From NCBI GenBank assembly GCA_029238215.1, contig JAQWGN010000007.1, positions 62,001 through 126,000 on the forward strand: a stretch of 64,000 bases of DNA, in the 5' to 3' direction. This DNA is from Flavobacteriaceae bacterium. Its GTDB lineage: Bacteria > Bacteroidota > Bacteroidia > Flavobacteriales > Flavobacteriaceae. The notes under the pieces were generated by a model. The model did no database searches and had not been told where the DNA came from. It saw only the letters and a list, made by a program, of their open reading frames with translations. Made by a program: the position numbers and the translations under genes. This document shows, in pieces, positions 1,253-18,432 of the stretch; the first letter of the stretch is position 1; every line of letters begins with the position of its first letter.

Positions 1253-4200
1253 ATGAATATGAGAAACAACATTTTAAAAGTACTCTTCTGCCTGCTTACG
1301 TTTTCGGCATTTTCCCAAGTGGAGGTTATGCAAAACAACAACGAGGCAAAACTCGTTGTTAATGGCGAAGACTTCATTGTCAATGGTATGAATTGGGATT
1401 ACTTTCCAATTGGAACCAATTATAGCTTTAGCTTATGGAATCAATCAGACGATTTCATTAAAGCTGCATTAGATACCGAGATGGGTCTTCTTAAAAATAT
1501 GGGGGTAAATACCATTCGTGTTTATACAGGAATGCAGCCTCGTTGGATTCAATATGTTTATGAAAAATACGGAATTCACACAATGCTAAACCACCCATTT
1601 GGCCGATATGGACTTACCATAGATGGCGCTTGGGTACCAGTAACAGATTACAGCAACCCCAAAGCAAAAGAGCTTCTTATTTCTGAGGTAAAAGCCATTG
1701 CGGAGGAATATAAAAACACACCAGGTTTACTGTTGTTCCTTCTTGGAAACGAGAATAACTACGGGTTGTTTTGGGCTGGTGCTGAAACGGAAGATTTTCC
1801 GGATGAAGAAGACCAACGAAGAGCTGTTGGTGAGAATCGAGGCAGACCGATGTACAAGCTCATGAATGAGGCGGCTAAGTTAATTAAAGGAATAGACGGG
1901 TCTCACCCAGTTGCGATTTGTAATGGGGACTTACTCTTTTTAGACATCATAGCTGAAGAATGTACAGACGTTGATATTTACGGGACAAACATGTATCGTG
2001 GTATTTCTTTTGGTGATACGTTTGATCGCGTTAAGAATGAATATGGCAAGCCTGTGCTTTTTACTGAGTTCGGTTCGGATGCCTTCAACGCACGATCTAA
2101 TAAAGAAGATCAGAAAGCTCAAGCTGACTATATGGTCGGTCAATGGGAAGAAATTTATGCTAATGCAGCGGGTCTCGGAAAAGCAGGCAATTCGATTGGT
2201 GGATTTACATTCCAATTTAGTGATGGTTGGTGGAAATATGGGCAAACAGATAACCTTAGTGTTCATGACAACAATGCCTCATGGTCTAATGGTGGATACC
2301 AATTTGACCATCAGGAGGGCTTGAACAATATGAATGAAGAATGGTTTGGAATTTGCGCTAAAGGGCCAACCGATGCACGTGGATTATACGATTTATATCC
2401 TAGAGCTGCATATTATGCACTGAAGCAAGCACATTCGCTTAACCCTTACGAAGATGGTGTTGATGCTGCATTTGTAGCCAATCACTTTGATAACATTCAA
2501 ATGATGGACGCAGTACTACGCGCAAGAGGCGATAAAGCGGCTCTTGGTGGTGGGGAAAAAATTCGTCTTAGCAACCTAAGGGCTGAAATTTCAACCTTTA
2601 ACACAGGAGGTAGCTTGATTACCACTCCAGATACTGCTAGTTCTGATGAAACGGTTTATCCGAATCAATTAGGATTCGATAATATGGAGTCTTATTTTAT
2701 TGGAGTTGAAGCAAGTCCTGCACCAGGAATGCGCGCAGAGGTAAACGTTAATGTATTAGGTAATGTTGCATCAAACCCAATAGATGAAATCTTCTACGAA
2801 AATAGGGGTAGATCACAGCAAGTGATGACAAAAGATGGTTATGCCACAATAAACCCTAATAGAGTTCAGGTGTACAATGCAGCCTTTGAATGGAACGCAA
2901 AGGACTTTGATGCACGCGGATTTTATAGAACAGGGCACTACCACTGGGCCTATGAGGGAGATGTTTTCAACCTTTATCCTGAAGCGAATTACGGTCCGAA
3001 CTTAGATATTTACAGTGGTGAAATACTAGGATTAGAAGTAGATGCCAAAGGAGCCTTACAAGGGCTCAAAGTGGCTTTTGGACCACAATTGTGGTGGGGA
3101 GCCAATCCAACAACCTTATTAAAATATTCTAAGAATATTCATAAATGGGATGTAACGGCTATTTACCACAGAGACCTGAACACAGAAGCAGAGTTTGATG
3201 CTAGTGGACGTCGTGTGTTGGATCAAAATCAAGTTTCTTCAGGTGTTATTCCTGCTTGGCCAACCGAGCGCGCTACACTTGCGTTTGAACGAAAGCTTGG
3301 AAACTTTGACCTTACTCTTGGCGCAATTTGGGCAGGGAGCCCACTTAACGGAAGCAAATTCCAAACAGTTGATGATGATTTTCATATAGTTCTTGAGGAC
3401 AAAGTCAACAAGGAAGACAACTGGGGTGGAAAGGCTAAAGTCGAATATGCCAAAGGTAAATTTATGTGGTATGCTCAAGGCTCTTACATGGGCTTAGTTG
3501 CCAACGGAGGTGCCGATCAAACCCAGACATTTACAGGATGGAAGCTTAAAGACTCTGGAAGCGGAAATATGACGAATGTACTTTCTGGATTTGCGTATCT
3601 TTTAGGAGACTTGCAAATTGCACCTAACTTTTTGTATCAAAAACCTTTAGTAGATCCAATGCCGAATACTTCATTTGGTCCTGGTCGCTTACGTAATGTT
3701 ATTGATGATCCGTTTGCGGTTCGTGGGGGCAACAGAGAAACCTTTGGAGCTGAATTGTTATTTACATTCGACCCCACACCAGGTACTTGGATGTATGAAT
3801 GGAACAATGATGTAATGGAAGATGCGAAGTTTGCTGTAAGTGCAGGCTTTGTCTTTAGACACTTGCCTACCACTCAAGATGCACACATAGGATTTTTAGC
3901 AAACCGTCAATTTTTTGCCTTTGCAAATTCTGCACCTGCAGAGGATTTATGGGAAGCACATACACGAGTTGTTTCTAAACTAAGCCCTGAACTTGGGCTT
4001 ATTGGTAATTTCTATTACGGAAACGGTCAAGGAAATGGCGACAATACAAGAACAATCACTCGTTTTGGTGGTGATGTTCGCATGATTCACAAAAAGATGA
4101 TGCTTATGACTCACGTTAAGGTAAACGACTGGGGTCCTTTTGACTACCATCGCGATTTTAACTTAACATACCCACTTCAACTGATGTTGGATGTTTCTAC

Positions 4201-4408
4201 ATCGCTTGGAAAGCCTGATTGGTTTTTACTGCCAAACACAAAAATTGGTATCCGTGGAACTTGGAGAACATTAAATCAATACTCTCCACGTTTCTCGCCA
4301 ATGCAGGCGGCAGAATTCTCTTCTGAACCTATCATAAGTCCTGTTGGATTTCCTGATGGTACTGAGTGGGAAATCAGAACCTATATTCACATAAACATTG
4401 GTAAATAA
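1253..4408 (+). CDS. Glycosidase (clan GH-A) fused to an outer-membrane beta-barrel
   Basis: The protein has 1051 residues with an N-terminal signal peptide (about residues 1-21, hydrophobic core then FSQ). Residues ~25-400 are a TIM-barrel glycosidase: LLGNEN supplies the probable acid/base E167 and LFTEFG the probable nucleophile E272, the layout of clan GH-A (GH2, GH5 and GH72-like). The exact family is not assigned. Residues ~430-1051 contain no catalytic motif. They consist of long alternating, aromatic-rich strands with short turns and a final strand ending HINIGK, as in porin-like outer-membrane barrels. The gene sits between two surface glycan-binding protein genes, with the next gene 13 bp downstream, so a glucan-acting enzyme displayed at the outer membrane is inferred. 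Such a fusion is unusual. Alternatively the C-terminal part could be a non-membrane beta-rich domain. Confidence 0.75.
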   Translation: MNMRNNILKVLFCLLTFSAFSQVEVMQNNNEAKLVVNGEDFIVNGMNWDYFPIGTNYSFSLWNQSDDFIKAALDTEMGLLKNMGVNTIRVYTGMQPRWIQYVYEKYGIHTMLNHPFGRYGLTIDGAWVPVTDYSNPKAKELLISEVKAIAEEYKNTPGLLLFLLGNENNYGLFWAGAETEDFPDEEDQRRAVGENRGRPMYKLMNEAAKLIKGIDGSHPVAICNGDLLFLDIIAEECTDVDIYGTNMYRGISFGDTFDRVKNEYGKPVLFTEFGSDAFNARSNKEDQKAQADYMVGQWEEIYANAAGLGKAGNSIGGFTFQFSDGWWKYGQTDNLSVHDNNASWSNGGYQFDHQEGLNNMNEEWFGICAKGPTDARGLYDLYPRAAYYALKQAHSLNPYEDGVDAAFVANHFDNIQMMDAVLRARGDKAALGGGEKIRLSNLRAEISTFNTGGSLITTPDTASSDETVYPNQLGFDNMESYFIGVEASPAPGMRAEVNVNVLGNVASNPIDEIFYENRGRSQQVMTKDGYATINPNRVQVYNAAFEWNAKDFDARGFYRTGHYHWAYEGDVFNLYPEANYGPNLDIYSGEILGLEVDAKGALQGLKVAFGPQLWWGANPTTLLKYSKNIHKWDVTAIYHRDLNTEAEFDASGRRVLDQNQVSSGVIPAWPTERATLAFERKLGNFDLTLGAIWAGSPLNGSKFQTVDDDFHIVLEDKVNKEDNWGGKAKVEYAKGKFMWYAQGSYMGLVANGGADQTQTFTGWKLKDSGSGNMTNVLSGFAYLLGDLQIAPNFLYQKPLVDPMPNTSFGPGRLRNVIDDPFAVRGGNRETFGAELLFTFDPTPGTWMYEWNNDVMEDAKFAVSAGFVFRHLPTTQDAHIGFLANRQFFAFANSAPAEDLWEAHTRVVSKLSPELGLIGNFYYGNGQGNGDNTRTITRFGGDVRMIHKKMMLMTHVKVNDWGPFDYHRDFNLTYPLQLMLDVSTSLGKPDWFLLPNTKIGIRGTWRTLNQYSPRFSPMQAAEFSSEPIISPVGFPDGTEWEIRTYIHINIGK

Positions 4409-5858: not shown

Positions 5859-6698
5859 ATGAATTTTAAAAATTTAAGAGAATCAAGTCCAATCCAACAA
5901 CTATCTCTATTGGGACTGGCAGTTGTGTTTGGTGTTTTTACAACCAGCTGCAACCCTGATGAAACTCAAGTGGTAGCCAATTTCACATCTACAATAACCC
6001 TTCAAGAAGAGTTTGATGTTGATCTTAATGACTCCATTTGGGGTTATGAAGAAGGCACAGGAACTGACGGCTGGGGAAATAATGAACTTCAGCATTATAC
6101 AAAACGCGCGGACAATGTAGTAATTGAGGACGGAATGTTGAAAATTACGGCGATTAAAGAATCGTATGAGGGTGCAGAGTATACCTCAGCCAGAGTGCTA
6201 ACAAAAGGAAAATTTGAGCAACAATACGGACGTGTTGAAGCACGAATCAAATTGCCTTCAGGAAAGGGACTTTGGCCTGCATTTTGGATGCTTGGCTCAA
6301 ATTACGATGTCGTAGGCTGGCCACAATGTGGTGAGATTGATATTATGGAAAACAAAGGTTCTGAGCCTACTATTGTTGCAGGTAGTTTGCATGGCCCTGG
6401 ATATTCTGGGGGTAATCCCGTAACTAAGCAGTTTCAGCTAACCGACAATCGTTTTGATAGTGATTTTCACATTTTTGGTATCGAATGGACCAAAGATTAT
6501 GTAAACCATTATGTTGACGGTGTATTGTATAATCATATCACACGTGATGATGTTCCTGGCGAATGGGTTTTTGATCAGCCGTTTTATATCATTTTAAACC
6601 TTGCTGTTGGGGGTAATTTTGATGGCGCACCAACCGACGCTACTGTATTTCCAAATCATATGCTGGTTGATTACATAAGAGTATACGCCGCTAAATAG
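5859..6698 (+). CDS. GH16 endo-beta-1,3-glucanase (laminarinase), lipoprotein
   Basis: The protein has 279 residues, a lipoprotein signal ending TTSC and a single GH16 domain. The catalytic motif GEIDIMEN places nucleophile E159, helper D161 and acid/base E164. LWPAFWMLG before it and the DFHIFGIEWT strand after it are typical of bacterial laminarinases. The length matches a catalytic domain without accessory modules. It probably cuts internal beta-1,3 bonds of laminarin at the cell surface, releasing oligosaccharides for the TonB-dependent importer. The neighbouring GH17, GH30 and GH3 genes support laminarin rather than agar or carrageenan as the substrate. Confidence 0.9.
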   Translation: MNFKNLRESSPIQQLSLLGLAVVFGVFTTSCNPDETQVVANFTSTITLQEEFDVDLNDSIWGYEEGTGTDGWGNNELQHYTKRADNVVIEDGMLKITAIKESYEGAEYTSARVLTKGKFEQQYGRVEARIKLPSGKGLWPAFWMLGSNYDVVGWPQCGEIDIMENKGSEPTIVAGSLHGPGYSGGNPVTKQFQLTDNRFDSDFHIFGIEWTKDYVNHYVDGVLYNHITRDDVPGEWVFDQPFYIILNLAVGGNFDGAPTDATVFPNHMLVDYIRVYAAK

Positions 6699-6810: not shown

Positions 6811-9800
6811 TTGCAAAACATTAAAGAACCTTTTACTAAAGACGACGCTATATTCTTAGGGGATTACTCTAGTCAATTTTCAACAAAAGAAGTACGCGGA
6901 GAACAAATTACAAGAAACGGGGAAATATTTTATAAGATTTCCAACGTAGATGCCATGCGCCCATTTTTTATGAGCATCGTAAGTAATTCAAACCATTGGA
7001 TGTTTATCTCTAGTAAAGGGAGTTTGTCGGCAGGGAGAAAGGATAGCAATAATGCCTTATTTCCGTACTATACGGACGATAAAATAACAGAAGCAGCAGC
7101 AATAACAGGAAGCAAAACACTGTGTATTGTTGCTACCGCTCAAAAAAAATACCTTTGGGAGCCTTTTTCTGACAGATACGAAGGAGTTTATAGCCTGACT
7201 AGAAACTTGTATAAAAATTCTTACGGGAATAAAATCATTTTTGAAGAAATTAATCACGACCTCAAAACGTCGTTTACTTACGAATGGAATTCAAGTGATA
7301 AGTTTGGCTTTGTACGAAAATCATCGTTAAATAATATAGGCTCAGAACCCCTGACAATCAACGTGATTGACGGGATTCAAAACATCTTGCCTTATGGCGT
7401 AGAAGAAGCACTGCAGAATAGCAGTAGTAATTTGGTTGATGCCTACAAAAAGTGTGAATTAGAGGCCGATACAGGGCTTGGAATTTATTCACTTAGTGCT
7501 ATAATCGTTGATAAGGCTGAACCTAGTGAAGCCTTAAAAGCGAATGTAGTTTGGTCGCTTGGACTGGATCATTCCAAAAAATTAATTTCTTCCCTGCAAC
7601 TAGACGCCTTTAGAAAAGGGCATCCTATTTCACAAGAAGAAGACATACGAGCTGAAAAAGGCGCTTATTTTTTATGTGATGAATTTACCTTAGCTGCAGA
7701 TTCATCCAAAAAATGGATGCTTGTTGCCAATGTTAATCAGACGATATCAGATATCGTTCAAATTAAAGAACAGCTACTAAACAATGAATCGCTTGCTGAT
7801 GAAGTGGCATATGATGTTGAAAACGGTTCAAAACATTTGGTCGAGCTTGTTGGTGCTTCCGATGGAATTCAACTAACCAATGACCGCCTTCGTAATATTC
7901 GACACTTTGCCAATACCATGTTTAACATCATGCGAGGAGGTATTTTTGACAAGAACTATCAAATTGAAAAGGCAGACTTTACCCAATACATAGCAAAGGC
8001 AAACCGAAAAGTATTTAAAAAGAAAGCACCGCTCTTAGAGACCTTACCTGAATTGTTTGACGCACATCACCTAAAAGAATTGGCTGCTAACGACGATGAT
8101 CAGAATTTTAAACGTCTTTGTTTTGAATATTTACCCTTAAAATTTAGCCGTCGCCATGGAGATCCTAGCCGCCCGTGGAACAAGTTTTCTATCAATACAC
8201 GTACTGAAGAGGGAACAAAAATTTTAGATTACCAAGGAAACTGGCGTGACATCTTCCAAAATTGGGAAGCATTGGCGCTTGCCTATCCCGAGTTTATTGA
8301 GGGAATGATCCATAAATTCCTTAACGCCACCACTTTTGACGGATACAACCCCTATCGAGTGACTAAAGATGGGTTTGATTGGGAAACTATTGAACCAGAC
8401 AATCCATGGTCGTATATTGGATACTGGGGCGATCATCAAATTATCTACCTCCTTAAATTCTTAGAGTTTATTGAAGCCTATTACCCAAATAAATTAGGAG
8501 AATACTTCAACCAAGATTTATTTGTGTACGCTAACGTGCCTTATCGTATTAAGAGCTATCAAGAAATTTTAAAAGATCCAAAAAACACCATTGATTTTGA
8601 TTTTGAAAACGAAGAACGAATTCAATTAAAACGCGATGAAATTGGCGTGGATGGTGCGTTATTAAGAGATCAGTCGGTCTTTATATATAAGGTAAACTTT
8701 ATAGAGAAAATATTAGCGACAGTTTTGGCAAAAATGTCAAACTTTATCCCTGAGGGTGGCATCTGGATGAACACCCAACGCCCTGAGTGGAATGACGCCA
8801 ATAATGCCCTTGTGGGCAACGGGGTGTCTATGGTTACGTTATATTATTTAAGAAGATTTTTGCGATTCTTCGAAAATGTAGTAACTAATACCGCCTGTGA
8901 TGATGTGGCTGTTTCTAACGAGCTTGCTGTGTTTTTTAATAAAATTTCATCAGGACTAGCACAACACAAACCCTTACTCAACGGCAGTATTTCTAATGAA
9001 GATAGAAAACAAATTATGGACGTTTTGGGAGAAGCGGGAAGTAACTACAGAAGTACGATATACAAAAACCGATTCTCTGGCGATAAACAAACAATTTCAA
9101 AACAAGATCTTATTTCGTTTATGTCAAACGCCACAGCATTTTTGGAGCACGCAATTGATGCAAATAAGCGCAATGACAACCTTTATCATGCGTATAATTT
9201 AATGACGCTTGAAAGCGATAAGGCTGTGCGTATCTCGCACCTTTCGGAAATGCTAGAAGGTCAAGTAGCCGTTCTTAGCTCGGGGTATCTTTCTGCCAAG
9301 GAAGCTTTAGAAGTTCTCGATGGATTAAAAGCAAGTGCGTTGTTTAGAGAAGATCAGTACAGCTATATTTTATATCCAAATAAAGAACTTCCACGCTTTG
9401 TAAATAAAAATACCATTCCACAAGATAAAGTGGAAGCTTCTGGGCTTTTAACAAAGTTGCTTGCGGATAAAAACACGGCAATTATTTCGAAAGACAAGAG
9501 AGGGGAATACCACTTTAACGGGAACTTTAATAATGCCAATAGTTTGCAGGAAGCACTAAAGTCTCTACCTAAAAACTACACGGATTTAGTTCAAAAAGAA
9601 ACCACTTACATTGAGCAACTTTTTGAAGCTATTTTTGATCATAAGTCATTTACAGGACGTTCTGGAACTTTTTACGGATACGAAGGTTTAGGGTCTATTT
9701 ATTGGCATATGGTATCCAAGTTGCTTTTAGCAGTTTATGAAATCACTGAAAAGGCTATTGCAGATAATGAGGATACTACGTTGATAGGTAGGCTATTTGA

Positions 9801-10293
9801 TCATTATTTTGAAATTAATGCCGGTATTGGTGCACATAAGTCTCCCGAACTTTACGGGGCATTTCCAACCGATCCATATTCACACACGCCAGGTGGAAAA
9901 GGAGCACAACAACCAGGGATGACCGGACAGGTAAAAGAAGATATTTTATGCCGCTTTGGCGAGCTGGGTGTTCGTGTACAAAACGGGGTTTTAGGATTTG
10001 ATCCGACCATTTTACGAAGCGAAGAGTTTTTACAAGAACCTCAAGTTTTTCACTATGTAGATGTAACCAATACAGCGAACACAATTCAATTAGGAAAGGA
10101 TACTTTGGCTTTTACATATTGTCAAGTGCCTGTTGTTTATAAGAAGGCGACAGAACCCTCAATTGAAATTAGTTTCAATTCGGGGGAGTCTAAACACATT
10201 ATTGGAAATCAGCTTACTAACGAATTAAGTACTGCTATTTTTAAACGAAAAAACAGCATTAATAAAATCACAGTTTCCGTAGTAAAGGACTAA
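6811..10293 (+). CDS. GH149-like beta-1,3-glucan phosphorylase, cytoplasmic
   Basis: The protein has 1160 residues and no signal peptide. The start is TTG at 6811: an in-frame TAA at 6784 closes the frame upstream and no ATG occurs before 6952. Length and layout fit GH149 (GH94-related (alpha/alpha)6 phosphorylases of about 1100 residues). The segment GGIWMNTQRPEWNDANNAL includes D662 in WNDAN as the likely general acid by analogy with GH94. GH149 enzymes phosphorolyse beta-1,3-gluco-oligosaccharides to glucose-1-phosphate. Position between GH16 and GH17 genes agrees. It would act on imported oligosaccharides in the cytoplasm and save ATP. Family assignment is from recall of the motif pattern and context, not a search. 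Confidence 0.7.
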   Translation: MQNIKEPFTKDDAIFLGDYSSQFSTKEVRGEQITRNGEIFYKISNVDAMRPFFMSIVSNSNHWMFISSKGSLSAGRKDSNNALFPYYTDDKITEAAAITGSKTLCIVATAQKKYLWEPFSDRYEGVYSLTRNLYKNSYGNKIIFEEINHDLKTSFTYEWNSSDKFGFVRKSSLNNIGSEPLTINVIDGIQNILPYGVEEALQNSSSNLVDAYKKCELEADTGLGIYSLSAIIVDKAEPSEALKANVVWSLGLDHSKKLISSLQLDAFRKGHPISQEEDIRAEKGAYFLCDEFTLAADSSKKWMLVANVNQTISDIVQIKEQLLNNESLADEVAYDVENGSKHLVELVGASDGIQLTNDRLRNIRHFANTMFNIMRGGIFDKNYQIEKADFTQYIAKANRKVFKKKAPLLETLPELFDAHHLKELAANDDDQNFKRLCFEYLPLKFSRRHGDPSRPWNKFSINTRTEEGTKILDYQGNWRDIFQNWEALALAYPEFIEGMIHKFLNATTFDGYNPYRVTKDGFDWETIEPDNPWSYIGYWGDHQIIYLLKFLEFIEAYYPNKLGEYFNQDLFVYANVPYRIKSYQEILKDPKNTIDFDFENEERIQLKRDEIGVDGALLRDQSVFIYKVNFIEKILATVLAKMSNFIPEGGIWMNTQRPEWNDANNALVGNGVSMVTLYYLRRFLRFFENVVTNTACDDVAVSNELAVFFNKISSGLAQHKPLLNGSISNEDRKQIMDVLGEAGSNYRSTIYKNRFSGDKQTISKQDLISFMSNATAFLEHAIDANKRNDNLYHAYNLMTLESDKAVRISHLSEMLEGQVAVLSSGYLSAKEALEVLDGLKASALFREDQYSYILYPNKELPRFVNKNTIPQDKVEASGLLTKLLADKNTAIISKDKRGEYHFNGNFNNANSLQEALKSLPKNYTDLVQKETTYIEQLFEAIFDHKSFTGRSGTFYGYEGLGSIYWHMVSKLLLAVYEITEKAIADNEDTTLIGRLFDHYFEINAGIGAHKSPELYGAFPTDPYSHTPGGKGAQQPGMTGQVKEDILCRFGELGVRVQNGVLGFDPTILRSEEFLQEPQVFHYVDVTNTANTIQLGKDTLAFTYCQVPVVYKKATEPSIEISFNSGESKHIIGNQLTNELSTAIFKRKNSINKITVSVVKD

Positions 10294-10335: not shown

Positions 10336-11616
10336 ATGAACACTTTAAGAAATATCGGACTTTTTGGTTTTTTCTTAAGCATTCTATTTATTGTTGCTTC
10401 CTGTACTACACAGCATTCAAACATGAAAGACAACACCATTACAGCTGCGGATATTTTGGGAAATCCTGATTACCCTGCAATTTCTTATGGAGGATACAGA
10501 GGAAAAACAAGGGATATTCAACCAACTATTGAGGAACTAAAGGAAGACTTAAAAATCCTATCTGCAATGGGAATCCGTATCCTTAGGACGTATAATGTGC
10601 AATTGCCACATGCATCTAATATTCTTAAGGCTATTAAAATACTTAAAAGTGAAGACCCCGATTTTGAGATGTATGTTATGTTGGGCGCATGGATTGATTG
10701 TTTAAACGCTTGGACGAATCAGGTAGTAAATCATTACGTTGAAAGTCCAAATAATGCCGATGAGATTCAACGCGCAATTGTTTTGGCGAATGAATATCCC
10801 GATATTGTAAAAGTTCTTGCCGTAGGCAATGAAGCCATGGTCAAATGGGCAACTAGCTACTATGTGCAAGCAGATGTGATTTTGAAATGGGTTAACCACC
10901 TTCAACAGCTAAAACAGGATGGTTCATTACCCCAATCCTTGTGGATTACAAGTTCTGACAATTTTGCTTCTTGGGGTGGCGGAGATAGCGAGTATCACAA
11001 TGCGTCACTAGAAGCCTTGGTAGCTGCTGTAGATTATATTTCTATGCATACCTATCCGTTTCACGACACCCACTATAATGCTGGATTTTGGGAAGCTAAC
11101 CCTGAGGATGTTGAGGGACAGTCTCAACTCGAACAAATTCAAACCGCTATGTTGAATGCACGGGATTATGCCATTGAGCAATACACGAGCGTTAAAAATT
11201 ACGTTGAAAGTTTAGGAATAGAAAAACCAATTCATATTGGAGAAACAGGGTGGGCAACTATATCTGGTGGTTTTTATGGCCGTAAGGGCTCACATGCCGC
11301 AGATGAGTACAAGCAAGCATTGTATTATAAGTTTATGAGAACCTGGACCAATGAAAACAACATCGCATGTTTCTTTTTTGAAGCCTTTGATGAGCGCTGG
11401 AAAGATGTCAACAACTCGAAAGGATCTGAAAACCACTTTGGACTATTTACGATTGACGGTAAAGCAAAATACGCTCTTTGGGATCTAGTTGATAAAGGGG
11501 TGTTTGATGGGCTTAACAGAAAGGGAAACCCTATTACTAAAACCTTCAAAGGAAGTACAGAAAATCTGTTTGTTTCGGTTATTCCTCCTATACTTTTAGA
11601 ACCAAATCTCAATTAA
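10336..11616 (+). CDS. GH17 beta-1,3-glucanase lipoprotein
   Basis: The protein has 426 residues with a lipoprotein signal ending VASC. The GH17 barrel shows AVGNEAMVKW with acid/base E166 and HIGETGWAT with nucleophile E303; YGGYRGKTRDI and ILRTYN near the N terminus are also typical. It is inferred to be surface or periplasmic and to act on linear beta-1,3-glucan or GH16 products, as exo- or endo-enzyme. It lies 42 bp after the phosphorylase and 9 bp before the GH30 gene. It belongs to a different GH17 subgroup from the two later GH17 domains in this locus, being longer and secreted. Confidence 0.85.
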   Translation: MNTLRNIGLFGFFLSILFIVASCTTQHSNMKDNTITAADILGNPDYPAISYGGYRGKTRDIQPTIEELKEDLKILSAMGIRILRTYNVQLPHASNILKAIKILKSEDPDFEMYVMLGAWIDCLNAWTNQVVNHYVESPNNADEIQRAIVLANEYPDIVKVLAVGNEAMVKWATSYYVQADVILKWVNHLQQLKQDGSLPQSLWITSSDNFASWGGGDSEYHNASLEALVAAVDYISMHTYPFHDTHYNAGFWEANPEDVEGQSQLEQIQTAMLNARDYAIEQYTSVKNYVESLGIEKPIHIGETGWATISGGFYGRKGSHAADEYKQALYYKFMRTWTNENNIACFFFEAFDERWKDVNNSKGSENHFGLFTIDGKAKYALWDLVDKGVFDGLNRKGNPITKTFKGSTENLFVSVIPPILLEPNLN

Positions 11617-11625
11617 AACTGTCAC

Positions 11626-13104
11626 ATGAAAAAAAGCATCCTTTTAACACTATTTATTATGACGTTTTCATGCACATCAAATAAACCTAAAATTGAAGTT
11701 TATGAAACTTCTGAAAGCGGCAATAAATTAACGTTAGTCTCTGCTTTCGAAGCGGAAGAAAATGTCACGACAATAGCCCTAGATATAACTACTGAATTGC
11801 AAACCATTACAGGCTTTGGAGGGGCTTTTACTGAGTCTTCAGCTTACCTTTTAAATCAAGTGAGCAAAGAAAACCGAACACGTATTTTAAACGCATATTT
11901 TGCCAAAGAAGGTGCCAGATATTCGCTCACTAGAACTCACATGAACTCTTGTGACTTTTCACTTGATAATTATTCCTACACGCCTATTGCTGGGGATAAA
12001 AACTTAGAACATTTTTCTATTGAAGAAGATAGAGAAGATCTCATCCCCATGATAAAAGAGGCAATGGCTATTTCAGAAGACGGATTTCGCTTGTTTGCTT
12101 CTCCTTGGACAGCAGCTCCATGGATGAAAGATAACAACAAATGGGTAGGCGGGAAATTACTTCCTGAGTATTATGATACTTGGGCATTGTTTTTTTCCAA
12201 GTACGTAGATGCTTACAAAGCTGAAGGCATTGATATTTGGGGATTTACTGTAGAAAATGAGCCTCATGGAAATGGCGAAAATTGGGAAAGCATGCATTAC
12301 TCCCCGGCAGAAATGACTCATTTTGTTCAACATTATTTAGGGCCCAAGCTTGAATCAGAGGGCAAAGGAGCGATTAAAATTTTGGGATATGATCAAAATC
12401 GTAGCGGTGTTTCAGAATGGGTAGATGCTATGTATAAAGACGAAGCATCATCTAAGTATTTTGCGGGAACCGCCGTGCATTGGTATGACAGCACTTACGA
12501 TTATTTCCCAGAAGCCTTACAGTATGCTCACCAAAAAGCACCTGATAAATTGTTGATTCAAACCGAAGCCTGTATAGACGCCGAAGTTCCTGTATGGGAA
12601 GACGATAAGTGGTATTGGAAAAAAGAAGCAACCGATTGGGGATACGATTGGCGTGAAGCTGAAAAAAAATACTTACACCCTAAATATGCACCTGCCAATC
12701 GCTATGCTCGGGATATTATTGGTTGCCTAAACAATTGGGTAGACGGCTGGGTTGATTGGAATATGGTTTTAGACACCAAGGGAGGGCCAAATTGGGCAAA
12801 CAACTGGTGTATAGCCCCTGTAATTGTTGATACAGATAAAGATGAAGTTTACTTTACGCCACTTTATTACATTATGTCACATTTTAGTAAGTTTATTCGC
12901 CCTGGCGCAAAAATAATTGATTCAAAAATTTCTGACCCTCAACTTATGGCAGCAGCAGCAAAGAACCCCGATGGGAGTATTGCAGTTGTTGTTTTTAATG
13001 AAAGCAAGACTCGAAAAAGTTTCAAACTAAACCTAAATCAGCTTAGCAAAAACATAACAATAGAACCCCAAGCAATACAAACGATTGTGATAACCGATCT
13101 CTAA
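11626..13104 (+). CDS. GH30 beta-1,6-glucanase/glucosidase, lipoprotein
   Basis: The protein has 492 residues with a lipoprotein signal ending FSC. The TIM barrel carries the acid/base E212 in FTVENEPHG and nucleophile E314 in IQTEAC; ITGFGGAFTE near the N terminus is the GH30 entry motif. The C-terminal ~70 residues form the usual side beta-sandwich (PDGSIAVVVFNES). GH30 enzymes of this type in flavobacterial laminarin PULs remove or cut beta-1,6-linked glucose branches, which fits branched laminarin. It ends 10 bp before the transporter gene. GH30_1 or GH30_3 membership cannot be decided by eye. Confidence 0.85.
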   Translation: MKKSILLTLFIMTFSCTSNKPKIEVYETSESGNKLTLVSAFEAEENVTTIALDITTELQTITGFGGAFTESSAYLLNQVSKENRTRILNAYFAKEGARYSLTRTHMNSCDFSLDNYSYTPIAGDKNLEHFSIEEDREDLIPMIKEAMAISEDGFRLFASPWTAAPWMKDNNKWVGGKLLPEYYDTWALFFSKYVDAYKAEGIDIWGFTVENEPHGNGENWESMHYSPAEMTHFVQHYLGPKLESEGKGAIKILGYDQNRSGVSEWVDAMYKDEASSKYFAGTAVHWYDSTYDYFPEALQYAHQKAPDKLLIQTEACIDAEVPVWEDDKWYWKKEATDWGYDWREAEKKYLHPKYAPANRYARDIIGCLNNWVDGWVDWNMVLDTKGGPNWANNWCIAPVIVDTDKDEVYFTPLYYIMSHFSKFIRPGAKIIDSKISDPQLMAAAAKNPDGSIAVVVFNESKTRKSFKLNLNQLSKNITIEPQAIQTIVITDL

Positions 13105-13114
13105 AACCGAAACC

Positions 13115-15469
13115 ATGAAAAATCAACCACATACTGCTCATGCTACTAAAGTTCCTATGGGTCAAAAAATCGCCTTTGGTTTTGGAATGTTGGCGAATCA
13201 GATGTTTCCTGCCATATTGGGAATTTTTATGGTTGTTTTGGTTCAAGACTTAGGATTTCCAGGGTGGATGTGGTCACTAATTTATTTTTTCCCAAGAATA
13301 TTCGATTCTATAACAGACCCAATTATGGGCTTTATCTCTGATAATACAAAATCGAAATGGGGGCGTCGTAGACAATATGTTTTCTTAGGTGGACTCTTGA
13401 TGGGTATTGCATATATTTTTATGTGGCAGTTGTTTAAAGAAAATTCACTCAACTTTAATTTCTGGTACTTCTTTCTTTGGTCAGTGATTTTTTACTTAGG
13501 CCTTACCTTGTTTAGCGTACCCTACGTAGCTATGGGCTATGAGATGAGTGATGATTTTCACGAACGTACAAGTATTATGGCTATTGCTCAATGGATTGGT
13601 CAATGGGCTTGGGTTATTGCTCCTTGGTTTTGGGTCATTATGTATGACCCCGAATGGTTTCCTTCGGCTGAAGTGGCCGTGCGTGAACTGTCTATATGGA
13701 TAGCGATTCCATGTGCCATTTGTGCAATGATTCCTGCATTTTTTATCAAAAGCAAGTCAACCCTAAACGAAAACTATGAGCCTCTCAACAGGGCTAACAT
13801 AGGGAATAGTTTAATGAAGATTTACTACAGTTTTGTAGCGGCCTTTAAAATTAAAGAGTTTAGAAAACTATGTGGAGCTACCTTTTTAATTTTTAACGCA
13901 TTTAACACTGTTGCAGCACTAACTTTTTTTGTGATTGTATTCAAACTCTTTAATGGAGATGCTGAGGCAAGCGGTATATGGGTTTCATTATTTGGATGCT
14001 TGGGTGCCTTGGGGACCACCTTCATTGTTATCCCTGTAATTACTAGGATGTCAAAAAGATTTGGCAAGAAAAAAGCGTTTTTATTATCACAAAGTATTTC
14101 TATCATTGGCTATATTATGCTTTGGTTCTTATTTGTACCTGGCAAACCATGGATGTACATAATTGCCCTTCCATTTTTCTCCTTTGGAATAGGCAGCTTG
14201 TTTACCATTATGATGTCTATGACTGCAGACGTAATTGATGTGGATGAGTTGAATACGGGTTTGCGTAGAGAAGGTCTTTTTGGTGCAATTTATTGGTGGA
14301 TGGTTAAGGTTGGCTTTGCTATTGCAGGAGCACTTAGTGGAGTGATTATCGCATTAGTTGGTTTTAATCCAGATTTAGCAACAACCGATCAACAATCAGC
14401 AGTTGATGGCTTACATGCATTTTTCTGCTTCTTTCCATTAGTAGGAACACTTATTGCAATGTACATCATGCGCGACTACAACATTGATGAAGAGCGCTCA
14501 AACGAAATTAGAGTACAGCTTAGAGAACGAAAAACCACCCAGAAATCGCTTACTTCTTTTTATCAAGTCAGAAAATTACAACAACTGACAGGCGCCAATT
14601 TCAATAATGCATTATCCTCAGATACAGACTTTAGCCGTATCGAAAGTGTACAACAAGCCAAGCTGTTCAAGGAAACCTTGGACAAAGGACTGCATGGATT
14701 ATGTTTTAGCCCATACACAGAAAACCAAAATGTTGGGGACACGCTTACAGATGCCCAAGTCAAGAAACGTATGGATATTGTTGCACCCTATACCAAATGG
14801 ATTCGCTCGTTCTCCTGTACACATGGAAATGAGCTTATTCCCAAAGCAGCAAAGGCAAGAGGATTAAGTACTATGGTTGGTGCTTGGATTGGCAAAGATA
14901 CCGAGGAAAACGAAAAAGAAATAAAAGCGTTGATAAATCTCGTTAGCCAGAATCTAGTAGACATCGCTGTTGTGGGAAATGAGGTATTAATGCGCGATGA
15001 ACAAAGTGAGGAGCAAATAATTGAATATATAGCACAAGTAAAGAAAGCAAACCCTAACGTTACAGTAGGTTATGTAGATGCCTATTATCAATATATCCAA
15101 CGTCCAAAACTAGTCGAAGCTTGTGACGTGATTTTAATAAACTGTTATCCTTTTTGGGAAGGATGCAAAATCGAATCATCAACGGCTCACCTTAAAGAAA
15201 TGTATGCGGCAACAAAAAATGTAGCTAATAACAAACCAGTTATCATCACAGAGACTGGATGGCCAAGCGAAGGCAATAGTGTGGAAGCTGCTAACCCATC
15301 TAAGGTAAACTCCATGCAGTATTTTGTAAATGCCAATGGTTGGGCAGAAAAGGAAGGGGTGTCAGTATTCTACTTTTCTTCATTTGATGAGTCTTGGAAA
15401 GTGCATCATGAAGGAGATGTTGGAGCGCGTTGGGGCATTTGGGATAAAAATGAAAAATTAAAATATTAA
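13115..15469 (+). CDS. MFS (GPH-type) sugar transporter fused to a C-terminal GH17 domain
   Basis: The protein has 784 residues. Residues 1-455 show 12 hydrophobic segments and the cytoplasmic loop DNTKSKWGRRRQ typical of glycoside-pentoside-hexuronide:cation symporters. Twelve segments and the positive loop put both ends in the cytoplasm. A charged linker (about 456-505) leads into a complete GH17 domain (about 510-784) with acid/base E623 in VVGNEVL and nucleophile E713 in ITETGWPS. The hydrolase is therefore predicted on the inner face of the membrane, where it could act on beta-1,3-oligosaccharides as they enter. No stop or frameshift lies between the halves. The GH17 part is a paralogue of the next gene, 4 bp downstream. 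Confidence 0.85.
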   Translation: MKNQPHTAHATKVPMGQKIAFGFGMLANQMFPAILGIFMVVLVQDLGFPGWMWSLIYFFPRIFDSITDPIMGFISDNTKSKWGRRRQYVFLGGLLMGIAYIFMWQLFKENSLNFNFWYFFLWSVIFYLGLTLFSVPYVAMGYEMSDDFHERTSIMAIAQWIGQWAWVIAPWFWVIMYDPEWFPSAEVAVRELSIWIAIPCAICAMIPAFFIKSKSTLNENYEPLNRANIGNSLMKIYYSFVAAFKIKEFRKLCGATFLIFNAFNTVAALTFFVIVFKLFNGDAEASGIWVSLFGCLGALGTTFIVIPVITRMSKRFGKKKAFLLSQSISIIGYIMLWFLFVPGKPWMYIIALPFFSFGIGSLFTIMMSMTADVIDVDELNTGLRREGLFGAIYWWMVKVGFAIAGALSGVIIALVGFNPDLATTDQQSAVDGLHAFFCFFPLVGTLIAMYIMRDYNIDEERSNEIRVQLRERKTTQKSLTSFYQVRKLQQLTGANFNNALSSDTDFSRIESVQQAKLFKETLDKGLHGLCFSPYTENQNVGDTLTDAQVKKRMDIVAPYTKWIRSFSCTHGNELIPKAAKARGLSTMVGAWIGKDTEENEKEIKALINLVSQNLVDIAVVGNEVLMRDEQSEEQIIEYIAQVKKANPNVTVGYVDAYYQYIQRPKLVEACDVILINCYPFWEGCKIESSTAHLKEMYAATKNVANNKPVIITETGWPSEGNSVEAANPSKVNSMQYFVNANGWAEKEGVSVFYFSSFDESWKVHHEGDVGARWGIWDKNEKLKY

Positions 15470-15473
15470 TAAG

Positions 15474-16391
15474 ATGTCTTACAGGGAAGGAAAAGTATTT
15501 CACTTAGATGAACTAGAACAAAAACCCGACAAAGGAGTTGGTGTTTTTTTTGATAAATCCAATGAAGATGAACTAAAGGAGCTTTGGAGAAAGACCCTAA
15601 TGTCTGGCATGCACGGTATTTGCTTTAGTATGTACGAAGATTCGCAAAAACCCGGGGATACCATTTCCGAAGCACAAGTAGAACGCCGCATAAAGATTTT
15701 AAAACCATACACAAACTGGATTCGTTCTTTTTCATGTATTGAAGGGAATGAACATATACCTATTCTTGCAAAAAAATACGGTCTTAAAACATTAGTAGGT
15801 GCTTGGCTAAGTGATGATAAAGACAAGAACGAGGAAGAAATCGAAGCGCTTATCCAAATGGCAAATGAAGGTTACGTAGATATTGCCGCGGTTGGAAACG
15901 AGGTCTTATATCGAAAAGAACTTACTTTAGAGGAATTACTGGCCTACATGAAGCGTGTACGTAAAGCAATACCCTCACATATTGATGTTGGCTATGTGGA
16001 TGCGTATTACGAGTTTTCAGTACACCCAGAGTTGGTTGAAAATTCTGATGTTATTTTGTCTAATTGCTATCCTTTTTGGGAGGGATGCCCCGAAGAATAT
16101 GCACTAAATCACATGCAACAAATGTATGGACAAGCCATGGCCGCAGCCAATGGCAAAAAAGTAATTATTACCGAAGCTGGATGGCCTAGCAAGGGCGAGG
16201 CCTTTAAAGGGTCGATTCCTTCAGAAGCTAATGCGATGAAATACTTTATTAATTCTCAAAGATGGGCTAAGGCAACAAATATTGAGTTGTTTTATTTTTC
16301 ATCATTTGATGAGTCTTGGAAAGTTGGTCCCGAAGGCGAGGTTGGTGCATATTGGGGGCTCTGGGATAAAACAGAGACGCTTAAGTTCTAA
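15474..16391 (+). CDS. Cytoplasmic GH17 beta-1,3-glucosidase/glucanase
   Basis: The protein has 305 residues, no signal peptide and a single GH17 domain. Acid/base E143 lies in AVGNEVL and nucleophile E234 in IITEAGWPS. Its closest relative in the window is the C-terminal domain of the preceding fusion protein: both share WIRSFSC, GYVDAYY, NCYPFWEGC, FYFSSFDESWKV and a WDK-x-E-x-LK end. This points to tandem duplication followed by fusion of one copy, or loss of the fusion from the other. It probably degrades short beta-1,3-oligosaccharides in the cytoplasm with the GH149-like phosphorylase. Transfer activity is also possible for GH17. Confidence 0.8.
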   Translation: MSYREGKVFHLDELEQKPDKGVGVFFDKSNEDELKELWRKTLMSGMHGICFSMYEDSQKPGDTISEAQVERRIKILKPYTNWIRSFSCIEGNEHIPILAKKYGLKTLVGAWLSDDKDKNEEEIEALIQMANEGYVDIAAVGNEVLYRKELTLEELLAYMKRVRKAIPSHIDVGYVDAYYEFSVHPELVENSDVILSNCYPFWEGCPEEYALNHMQQMYGQAMAAANGKKVIITEAGWPSKGEAFKGSIPSEANAMKYFINSQRWAKATNIELFYFSSFDESWKVGPEGEVGAYWGLWDKTETLKF

Positions 16392-16416: not shown

Positions 16417-18432
16417 ATGAAAACAACACATCTCCTTTCAGCTTTAGTGGTTTTATCGTTTTTTACCAGCTGTTCTTTACCATCAAAAAAACAGAACGAA
16501 AAAGTAATTTCCGAAAAAGTTACACGTATTTTAGAGCAAATGACCCTCGAAGAAAAAGTTGGTCAAATGACTCAAATTGATGTGCGGTTGTTGGACGATA
16601 TTCAAGACATTAAAACCTATCATATTGGTTCTATTTTAAGTGGCGGAGGTTCAGTTCCAAAAATCAACACACCCAAAGGCTGGCTCGACATGGTAAATGG
16701 ACTTCAAGCAATTGCTTTAAATGGCCGTCTTAGCATTCCCCTTATCTATGGTATAGATGCCGTTCACGGACACAACAATGTATTAGGAGCTACGGTTTTT
16801 CCACACAATCTTGCCCTTGGTGCTGCCAACGATGCTGATCTTGTATATCGAGTTAACAAGGCAACAGCTATTGAAGTCGCAGCAACCGGAATTCACTGGA
16901 CATTTTCGCCTTGCATTACCATTCCTCAAGATCCACGTTGGGGTCGTTTTTATGAAGGCTTTGGTCAAACAACAGAAAGAGTAAATGGACTTACCAAAGC
17001 TGCCGTTTTAGGGTATCAAGATCGATTGACTGAAGTACAAAACAAGCAAGTGGCTGCCTGCGCCAAACACTTTATTGGTGATGGTGCAACGGTATGGGGA
17101 TCAGGAACTCGTTTAGACGGTATACACACCTACATGCTAGACCGAGGTGATGTACAGCTTGACGACGAAACACTTCGTGAAATTTACCTTCCTCCTTATC
17201 AAACAGCGATTGCCGCTGATGTAAAAACTATAATGGCTAGTTTTAATAGTATACTAGGGGAAAAGTGCCATGGGAGTTCATACATATTGACAGATTTATT
17301 GAAAGATGAGCTTGGTTTTAAGGGCTTTGTTATTTCCGATTGGGCTGGTATCGATGAAATTCCTGGTGATTATAAATCGGATGTGATAAACGGAGTAAAT
17401 GCAGGGATTGATATGGTTATGGTTCCGGGTGTTATGAAAGGGCAAAACCAAAAACACTATAAACTTTTTATCCAATTCCTTATTGAAGCTGTGAATGAAG
17501 GCAGTGTCTCCATAGAAAGAATAAACGATGCCGTACGACGTATTTTAAAAGTAAAAATGGAGATTGGATTGTTTGAAGACCCTTATATGGAGGATACGTC
17601 ACTTGATAAAATTGGCTCTAAAGAACACCGTGCCCTTGCTCGCGAAGCAGTGCAAAAATCAACGGTACTTCTAACAAATAACAACATACTTCCATTGGCT
17701 AAAAATGCTTCTATTACCGTTGTGGGATCAGGAGCAAATAATCTCGGTGTGCAAAATGGAGGATGGACTACCGAGTGGCAGGGATTCTTCACCCCAGACT
17801 TTCCCTTTTTAGATATTAATGCTGATGGTGTACTTACGTTGAAAGAATACAACGGTCAACTCCAAAAAATTTATGAAGGAAAATTCGAAGTGAATAGCTG
17901 GTCTGCTTACTTTGAAGAAATAGATTTGGATGGTGATGGAAAAGTTTCGAATATGGACTTTACTAGCTTTATGCGTCACCGTCCGTTACAACCCAATGGA
18001 ACGACCGTGTTGGAAGGATTGCGTGAGGTTGCTCCTGATGCTATTATTACTTATGACCCCAATGGTCTAGCCATTCCCAAAGGCGATATTGTAGTAGCTG
18101 TAGTAGGTGAGTACCCCTATGCAGAAGGTTTTGGAGACGATGCTGATTTGCGAATGAATAAATCGGATTTAGCGGCTATAAAACGCATACAGGAAGCAGG
18201 AAATCCAGTGGTTGTGCTGATGCTTTCAGGACGTCCATTAATGGTACATGAACAGCTTGAGCATTGGGACGCTTTTGTTGCTTCTTTTTTGCCCGGTATG
18301 GCGGGTGAAGGATTGGCAGATGTTATATTTGGAGAATTCAACCCACAGGCAACACTTGGATTTACATGGCCTTCTAGCCCCAATGGAGATGGGGTATTAT
18401 TTAAACAGGGAAGTGGCTTAAACTACAACTAG
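16417..18432 (+). CDS. GH3 beta-glucosidase lipoprotein with inserted EF-hand pair
   Basis: The start is taken at ATG 16417, where a lipoprotein signal ending FTSC begins; the frame is open to 16282 but that stretch overlaps the GH17 gene. The protein has 671 residues. The N-terminal barrel carries the GH3 nucleophile D308 in VISDWAG, and KHFIGDG is the substrate-binding loop. In the second domain, between GGWTTEWQG and GTTVLEGL, where exo-glucanase-type GH3 enzymes normally have a short loop, lie two calcium-binding-type loops, DINADGVLTLKE (from residue 466) and DLDGDGKVSNMD (from residue 503). It is inferred to be a periplasmic or surface exo-beta-glucosidase that frees glucose. Confidence 0.85.
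   Translation: MKTTHLLSALVVLSFFTSCSLPSKKQNEKVISEKVTRILEQMTLEEKVGQMTQIDVRLLDDIQDIKTYHIGSILSGGGSVPKINTPKGWLDMVNGLQAIALNGRLSIPLIYGIDAVHGHNNVLGATVFPHNLALGAANDADLVYRVNKATAIEVAATGIHWTFSPCITIPQDPRWGRFYEGFGQTTERVNGLTKAAVLGYQDRLTEVQNKQVAACAKHFIGDGATVWGSGTRLDGIHTYMLDRGDVQLDDETLREIYLPPYQTAIAADVKTIMASFNSILGEKCHGSSYILTDLLKDELGFKGFVISDWAGIDEIPGDYKSDVINGVNAGIDMVMVPGVMKGQNQKHYKLFIQFLIEAVNEGSVSIERINDAVRRILKVKMEIGLFEDPYMEDTSLDKIGSKEHRALAREAVQKSTVLLTNNNILPLAKNASITVVGSGANNLGVQNGGWTTEWQGFFTPDFPFLDINADGVLTLKEYNGQLQKIYEGKFEVNSWSAYFEEIDLDGDGKVSNMDFTSFMRHRPLQPNGTTVLEGLREVAPDAIITYDPNGLAIPKGDIVVAVVGEYPYAEGFGDDADLRMNKSDLAAIKRIQEAGNPVVVLMLSGRPLMVHEQLEHWDAFVASFLPGMAGEGLADVIFGEFNPQATLGFTWPSSPNGDGVLFKQGSGLNYN

Follow-up and report, generated by a model that had tools for sequence, protein, structure and literature searches.

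An MFS-GH17 Fusion in a Flavobacteriaceae Laminarin Utilization Locus, Very Probably an Orthologue of FbGH17B

Gene Content of the Locus

The window analyzed here, a stretch of 64,000 nucleotides from the assembled genome of a marine Flavobacteriaceae bacterium, carries a gene on its + strand (13115..15469) that joins an MFS transporter and an enzyme of glycoside hydrolase family 17 (GH17) in one protein of 784 amino acids. The surrounding genes begin upstream with a Y_Y_Y/Reg_prop regulator, SusC, SusD, lipoproteins that match no Pfam family, and a protein whose match to GH2 is weak; then come GH16, GH149, GH17A, GH30, the fusion itself, a separate GH17, and GH3, all of these enzymes being encoded on the + strand. 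The GH16 lipoprotein (5859..6698; PF00722, with a lipobox) is of the laminarinase type, and the GH149 beta-1,3-glucan phosphorylase (6811..10293) scores 1811 bits against NF058639, for which the cut-off is 1150, and has no visible signal peptide. Next come a GH17 lipoprotein (10336..11616; PF00332, lipobox Cys23), by position and family an endo-laminarinase like FbGH17A and MlGH17A, and a GH30 enzyme (11626..13104; PF02055, E 6e-73, lipobox-like Cys16), which by analogy with FbGH30 is of the beta-1,6-glucosidase type. Beyond the fusion gene lie the separate GH17 (15474..16391) and a GH3 lipoprotein (16417..18432; PF00933 and PF01915) with a lipobox after the ATG at 16417, its likely start. Inspection of the locus proteins for signals found lipoprotein-like ones on GH16, GH17A, GH30, and GH3, none on GH149 or the separate GH17, and none of the lipoprotein kind on the fusion protein. 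The spacers near the fusion measure 9, 10, and 4 bases, the last of them in front of the separate GH17, which suggests a single operon. By its gene content this is a laminarin utilization locus, and the company that the fusion keeps (GH17A, GH30, and SusC/SusD) is that of a laminarin locus of the FbGH17B type.

Two other features of this region deserve mention. Positions 1253-4408 of the window encode a 1051-aa protein in which a weak match to a GH2 TIM barrel (residues 72-283) is followed by a long region resembling an outer-membrane beta-barrel, possibly a second fusion of an enzyme to a membrane protein within the locus. Upstream of the window (L153:1731-5294, contig C17), sulfatase and formylglycine-generating-enzyme-like genes adjoin the laminarin locus on the opposite strand.

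The Fusion Gene and Its Transporter Half

The MFS-GH17 fusion as read from the window is confirmed as real. Its frame runs from ATG to TAA over 784 codons without an internal stop, and MFS_2 (PF13347) matches residues 21-459 (E 2e-61) while Glyco_hydro_17 (PF00332) matches residues 697-784 (E 1e-10), which is the order of domains in an FbGH17B-type polypeptide. Full-length homologues occur in 35 loci, the window's own included. Since the architecture recurs at 78-82% identity in five further genomes of its genus, and also in many other families, the fusion is not an assembly accident. The original prediction of a complete transporter and a complete GH17 domain with both catalytic Glu residues in a single frame is therefore upheld by the open reading frame, the Pfam matches, the structural matches, and the alignment. 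Both halves appear to be under purifying selection, with dN/dS of ~0.02-0.04 for the transporter and 0.06 for the GH17 domain, values that come from few usable pairs with dS near saturation. An internal promoter or terminator between the halves was rejected, because a scan of the region gave 6 promoter-like sites (7.1 expected by chance) and 1 terminator-like site (2.4 expected), the latter beyond the stop codon. One copy from the same genus (G719:C10:12552-14875) has a frame break near residue 683 that may reflect decay or an assembly error.

Residues 1-480 (13115..14554, +) form a symporter domain of the GPH/MelB type (TC 2.A.2) according to PF13347, the MelB fold, and the loop charges, although the match to TIGR00792 (E 6e-52) scores 176.8, below the strict cut-off of 231.35. 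The sequence aligns with the solved MelB structures 4m64 and 8t60, and a Foldseek search of the PDB with an AlphaFold2 model returned MelB with a TM-score of 0.83 (over MelB). Hydropathy gives 11 clear helix peaks which, with the Asp-bearing helix 2, make 12 membrane helices, in agreement with the model. D64 and D68 of helix 2 (13304..13318, +) are equivalent to MelB Asp55 and Asp59 in the alignment to 4m64, K398 aligns with K377, and all three residues are invariant among 33 fused proteins. Asp55 and Asp59 belong to the cation site of MelB, and the invariance of the aligned residues makes cation symport the likely energy source, so that the transporter half likely takes up sugar in this way. 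The sugar-site residues Asp19 and Asp124 of MelB align with Gln29 and ~Ser134, in line with a different sugar. The fusion thus shares with MelB (4m64, 7l16, 8t60) the fold, the 12 helices, the Asp pair, and the Lys, and differs in its extra C-terminal enzyme.

The positively charged residues of the loops are distributed unevenly, with a mean of 21.5 K+R on the side of the N terminus and 3.7 on the other, and the bias has the same direction in 33/33 homologues. By the positive-inside rule this bias and the 12 helices predict that both termini, and with them the GH17 domain, are cytoplasmic. The placement of both ends in the cytoplasm, as proposed originally, is borne out at the level of prediction by this rule, the helix count, and the MelB fold.

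The GH17 Half and the Neighboring Paralogue

The AlphaFold2 model, built from 33 fused homologues (pLDDT 84.3, pTM 0.65), shows long membrane helices as far as residue 452, followed by a short helix at 459-476, a poorly ordered linker at ~476-510, and then a TIM barrel; at a pTM of 0.65 it does not fix how the two halves are placed relative to one another. The variable linker, taken as residues 481-510 (14555..14644, +), has a pLDDT <50 in parts and evolves fast, being 38-41% identical within the genus where the transporter is 85-88% identical. The remaining residues, 511-784 (14645..15466, +), form the GH17 domain. Its closest solved structure is the beta-1,3-glucanosyltransferase RmBgt17A of Rhizomucor miehei (4wtp, E 3e-30, residues 534-776), and in the Foldseek search 4wtr of the same enzyme gave a TM-score of 0.86 (over RmBgt17A). 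In addition to the TIM barrel, the domain has the two conserved catalytic Glu residues of family 17, the acid/base E623 in a VGNE motif (14981..14983, +) and the nucleophile E713 in a TETGW motif (15251..15253, +), each invariant in 35/35 fused proteins.

The separate GH17 encoded directly downstream is 53% identical to the fused domain, and its closest characterized match in kind is MlGH17B of Muricauda lutaonensis (WIW39500.1; PMC11005184), an unfused transglycosylase. Both are stand-alone enzymes without a signal peptide, predicted to be cytoplasmic in the window's case, and both keep a Tyr-Trp-Glu acceptor triad. The Tyr of this triad (Tyr136 in MlGH17B, Tyr102 in RmBgt17A) is required for transglycosylation and is replaced by Met in FbGH17B (PMC11005184). 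The window's fused domain also has Met at this position (M626, 14990..14992, +) and keeps the other two residues as Trp681 and Glu682. RmBgt17A, which is fungal and has no transporter fusion, therefore shares with it the fold, the catalytic residues, and the acceptor-site Trp and Glu, and differs at Tyr102.

The contrast between fused and separate copies extends well beyond the window. In a first set of loci, position 626 of the fused domains is M in 7, L in 17, H in 6, Q in 2, F in 1, and Y in 2 (33/35 non-Tyr), whereas Tyr is present in 26/26 separate copies from unfused loci and 27/34 from fused ones (53/60 in total), the seven exceptions being Leu (five Burkholderiales, two Bacteroidota). 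A second set, which may have species in common with the first, has L in 20, M in 13, H in 1, and Y in 4 fused domains (34/38 non-Tyr) and Y in 59 and L in 7 separate ones (Tyr in 59/66). Residue 626 is not a strict marker, because two and four fused domains of the respective sets retain Tyr and some separate enzymes have Leu. Moreover, because the fused copies form one clade, the contrast amounts to roughly one clade-level difference, modified afterward by some reversals or parallel substitutions. Nevertheless, the loss of Tyr from most fused copies and its retention in most separate ones is an addition to the published picture, and as a residue pattern it supports, short of proof, a fused domain that hydrolyzes and a separate GH17 that transfers.

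Distribution and History

The fusion of these domains is not a discovery. FbGH17B from Formosa sp. Hel1_33_131 (FORMB_24740, AOR29491.1), cloned by Unfried et al. in 2018, has the same order of transporter and GH17 in one polypeptide, and its gene lies in a laminarin locus, directly behind those of GH17A and GH30; the authors proposed that uptake and hydrolysis are coupled and called the fusion common in marine Flavobacteriia (PMC6246565). Papers on MlGH17B discuss FbGH17B again (PMC11005184, PMC13188888). The window's protein is very probably its orthologue, an inner-membrane transporter-enzyme of Bacteroidota laminarin loci. It belongs to a different species, and the identity of 66% that we report is to the copy of a Formosa sp. 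MAG (L008), not to the FbGH17B record itself; likewise, the separate GH17 directly after the fusion is established for the window's side of this comparison. Looking more widely in the literature for other fusions of a transporter to a glycoside hydrolase yielded no relevant hits, and none of the papers found contained a test of whether the fusion couples uptake to cleavage or pulls transport, the idea of the original prediction that Unfried et al. had already put forward.

The one-frame fusion is present in 35 of 81 loci (80 from a genome collection in which many records are MAGs, plus the window's own), a fraction that is not a frequency because this protein served as the query for the collection. 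Carriers are mostly Flavobacteriaceae, with others in Cyclobacteriaceae, Flammeovirgaceae, Microscillaceae, Saprospirales, and Chitinophagaceae, and beyond the phylum in a Balneolaceae MAG (Balneolota) and five Burkholderiales. Frames of at least 600 aa with this GH17 were present in 15/395 genomes of a phylum sample and at least 26/397 of a family sample. The view that transporter-hydrolase fusions are rare is consequently wrong for this pair of domains, which is both published (PMC6246565) and widespread in our survey; the fusion goes back further and occurs more widely than previously described. Within the window's genus, 6/17 genomes (its own included) have an intact fusion, and others have the transporter alone, ending at about residue 475-490, or broken copies, with the absences uncertain because completeness is under 90%. 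In many relatives the transporter and a separate GH17 are adjacent yet unfused. The same transporter occurs in many close relatives without any GH17 domain, so transport probably does not depend on this domain.

The five Burkholderiales loci (L022, L023, L026, L043, and L064, mostly MAGs) have the fusion beside other beta-glucan genes, and their separate GH17 enzymes also carry Leu at the Tyr position. These fusions look like the result of transfer between phyla, and the Hydrogenophaga MAG L026, in which GH16, GH17, and GH30 genes accompany the fusion, indicates that locus context travels with it.

Quick IQ-TREE runs with SH-aLRT support give different pictures for the two halves. The 35 fused domains group together as a single clade of the GH17 tree (SH-aLRT 96), and the separate genes beside fused and unfused transporters intermix outside it. 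In the transporter tree fused and unfused proteins are mixed, requiring 20 changes, at least 12 of them forced by well supported branches. No free-standing member of the fused clade was seen in the loci examined; in the second set (69 loci), no fused-type GH17 lay in a short stand-alone frame, and those outside long frames were cut by a locus edge. The simplest reading of these trees is a single ancient fusion whose GH17 domain the transporter then lost repeatedly, together with at least one more recent fusion; exchange of transporter halves is an alternative. In L094 (G042) the GH17 joined to the transporter is of the separate type and bears the Tyr, apparently the product of a second and independent fusion event. 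An origin of the separate GH17 by fission of a fusion was rejected, because separate genes from beside fused transporters and from beside unfused ones are interspersed in the tree, with the fused clade apart from both; on the phylogeny, 15474-16391 is a paralogue.

Proposed Function and Alternatives

We regard as probable that the fusion is an FbGH17B orthologue that imports laminari-oligosaccharides and carries a tethered cytoplasmic hydrolase, followed by a separate transglycosylase and then GH149. SusC/SusD, GH16, GH17A, and GH30, at the outer membrane and in the periplasm, would turn laminarin into short unbranched beta-1,3-gluco-oligosaccharides, which the MelB-like half, judged by its fold and conserved Asp pair, would import by cation symport. 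The GH17 half would hang on a flexible linker from the cytoplasmic C terminus and trim the oligosaccharides at the exit, where tethering would raise the enzyme concentration. Having lost the acceptor-platform Tyr, the fused domain should mainly hydrolyze, the separate GH17 would mainly transglycosylate, and GH149 would phosphorolyze what remains. The symport, the substrate size, the benefit of tethering, and the division of labor are what we infer here. As a counterpoint, a hydrolase beside GH149 would squander the energy of a bond that phosphorolysis conserves, a cost that would make sense if oligosaccharides were cut to a size that suits GH149 or if the exit had to be cleared quickly. A further counterpoint comes from close relatives, including members of the same genus, in which the transporter lacks GH17, which shows the tether to be dispensable.

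Two alternatives concern the form and the location of the protein. It is very improbable that internal initiation, cleavage, or an assembly frame error makes two products of the two halves: the bare transporters that stop near residue 475-490 and the frame-broken G719 copy would fit, but no in-frame ATG or GTG occurs between codons ~456 and 548, the lone TTG at codon 522 falls inside the first GH17 helix, and the architecture is repeated in many independent assemblies. A periplasmic C-terminal domain that supplies the transporter with glucose would accord with the coupled hydrolysis and product uptake of which the available text of Unfried et al. speaks without fixing the side (PMC6246565), yet the twelve helices, the charge bias, the MelB fold, and the missing signal sequence make this most unlikely.

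Other alternatives leave the topology intact and concern what the domain does. That it is an MlGH17B-like transglycosylase, building longer or branched chains unable to leave the cell, is unlikely: its 53% identity to the paralogue, its nearest solved relative being a glucanosyltransferase, and the retention of Trp681 and Glu682 speak for transfer, and against it stands the change of Tyr to Met, as in FbGH17B, for which others have published in vitro hydrolysis of debranched laminarin oligosaccharides to glucose. Closer to our own reading, and only somewhat short of probable, is that the fusion fixes stoichiometry and location and leaves transport kinetics unaffected, a proposal that is compatible with FbGH17B identity and differs on why the fusion has been kept. 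The adjacent but unfused genes of many relatives, the repeated gain or loss of the domain on the transporter tree, and the fast-evolving linker would all be expected from it. In contrast, the persistence of the fused clade across phyla, never free-standing in the loci examined, suggests that the tether matters for this version of the enzyme. More tentatively, the fused clade may have become a hydrolase that depends on the transporter and keeps its exit clear, with the free paralogue still a transglycosylase; such a lasting division of labor would have been carried to other phyla along with the locus, and the tethered copy lost repeatedly from the transporter. Laminarin is a major marine carbon store and the fusion sits where its fragments enter Bacteroidota cells; with fused and unfused forms in close relatives and a paralogue for internal comparison, it provides a natural system well suited to the question of whether a tether speeds uptake.

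The GH17 complement of these loci includes one more member. A third, divergent GH17-like gene (~320 aa; NEACVD, PVWEY, and TEAGW motifs) was not seen in the window but often lies behind the separate GH17 elsewhere (L018:3750-4715, L020:4278-5237, L032:5465-6412, L077:9990-10982, and L043:8968-9954). Its copies group as a clade of their own, and their Tyr position is occupied by Val.
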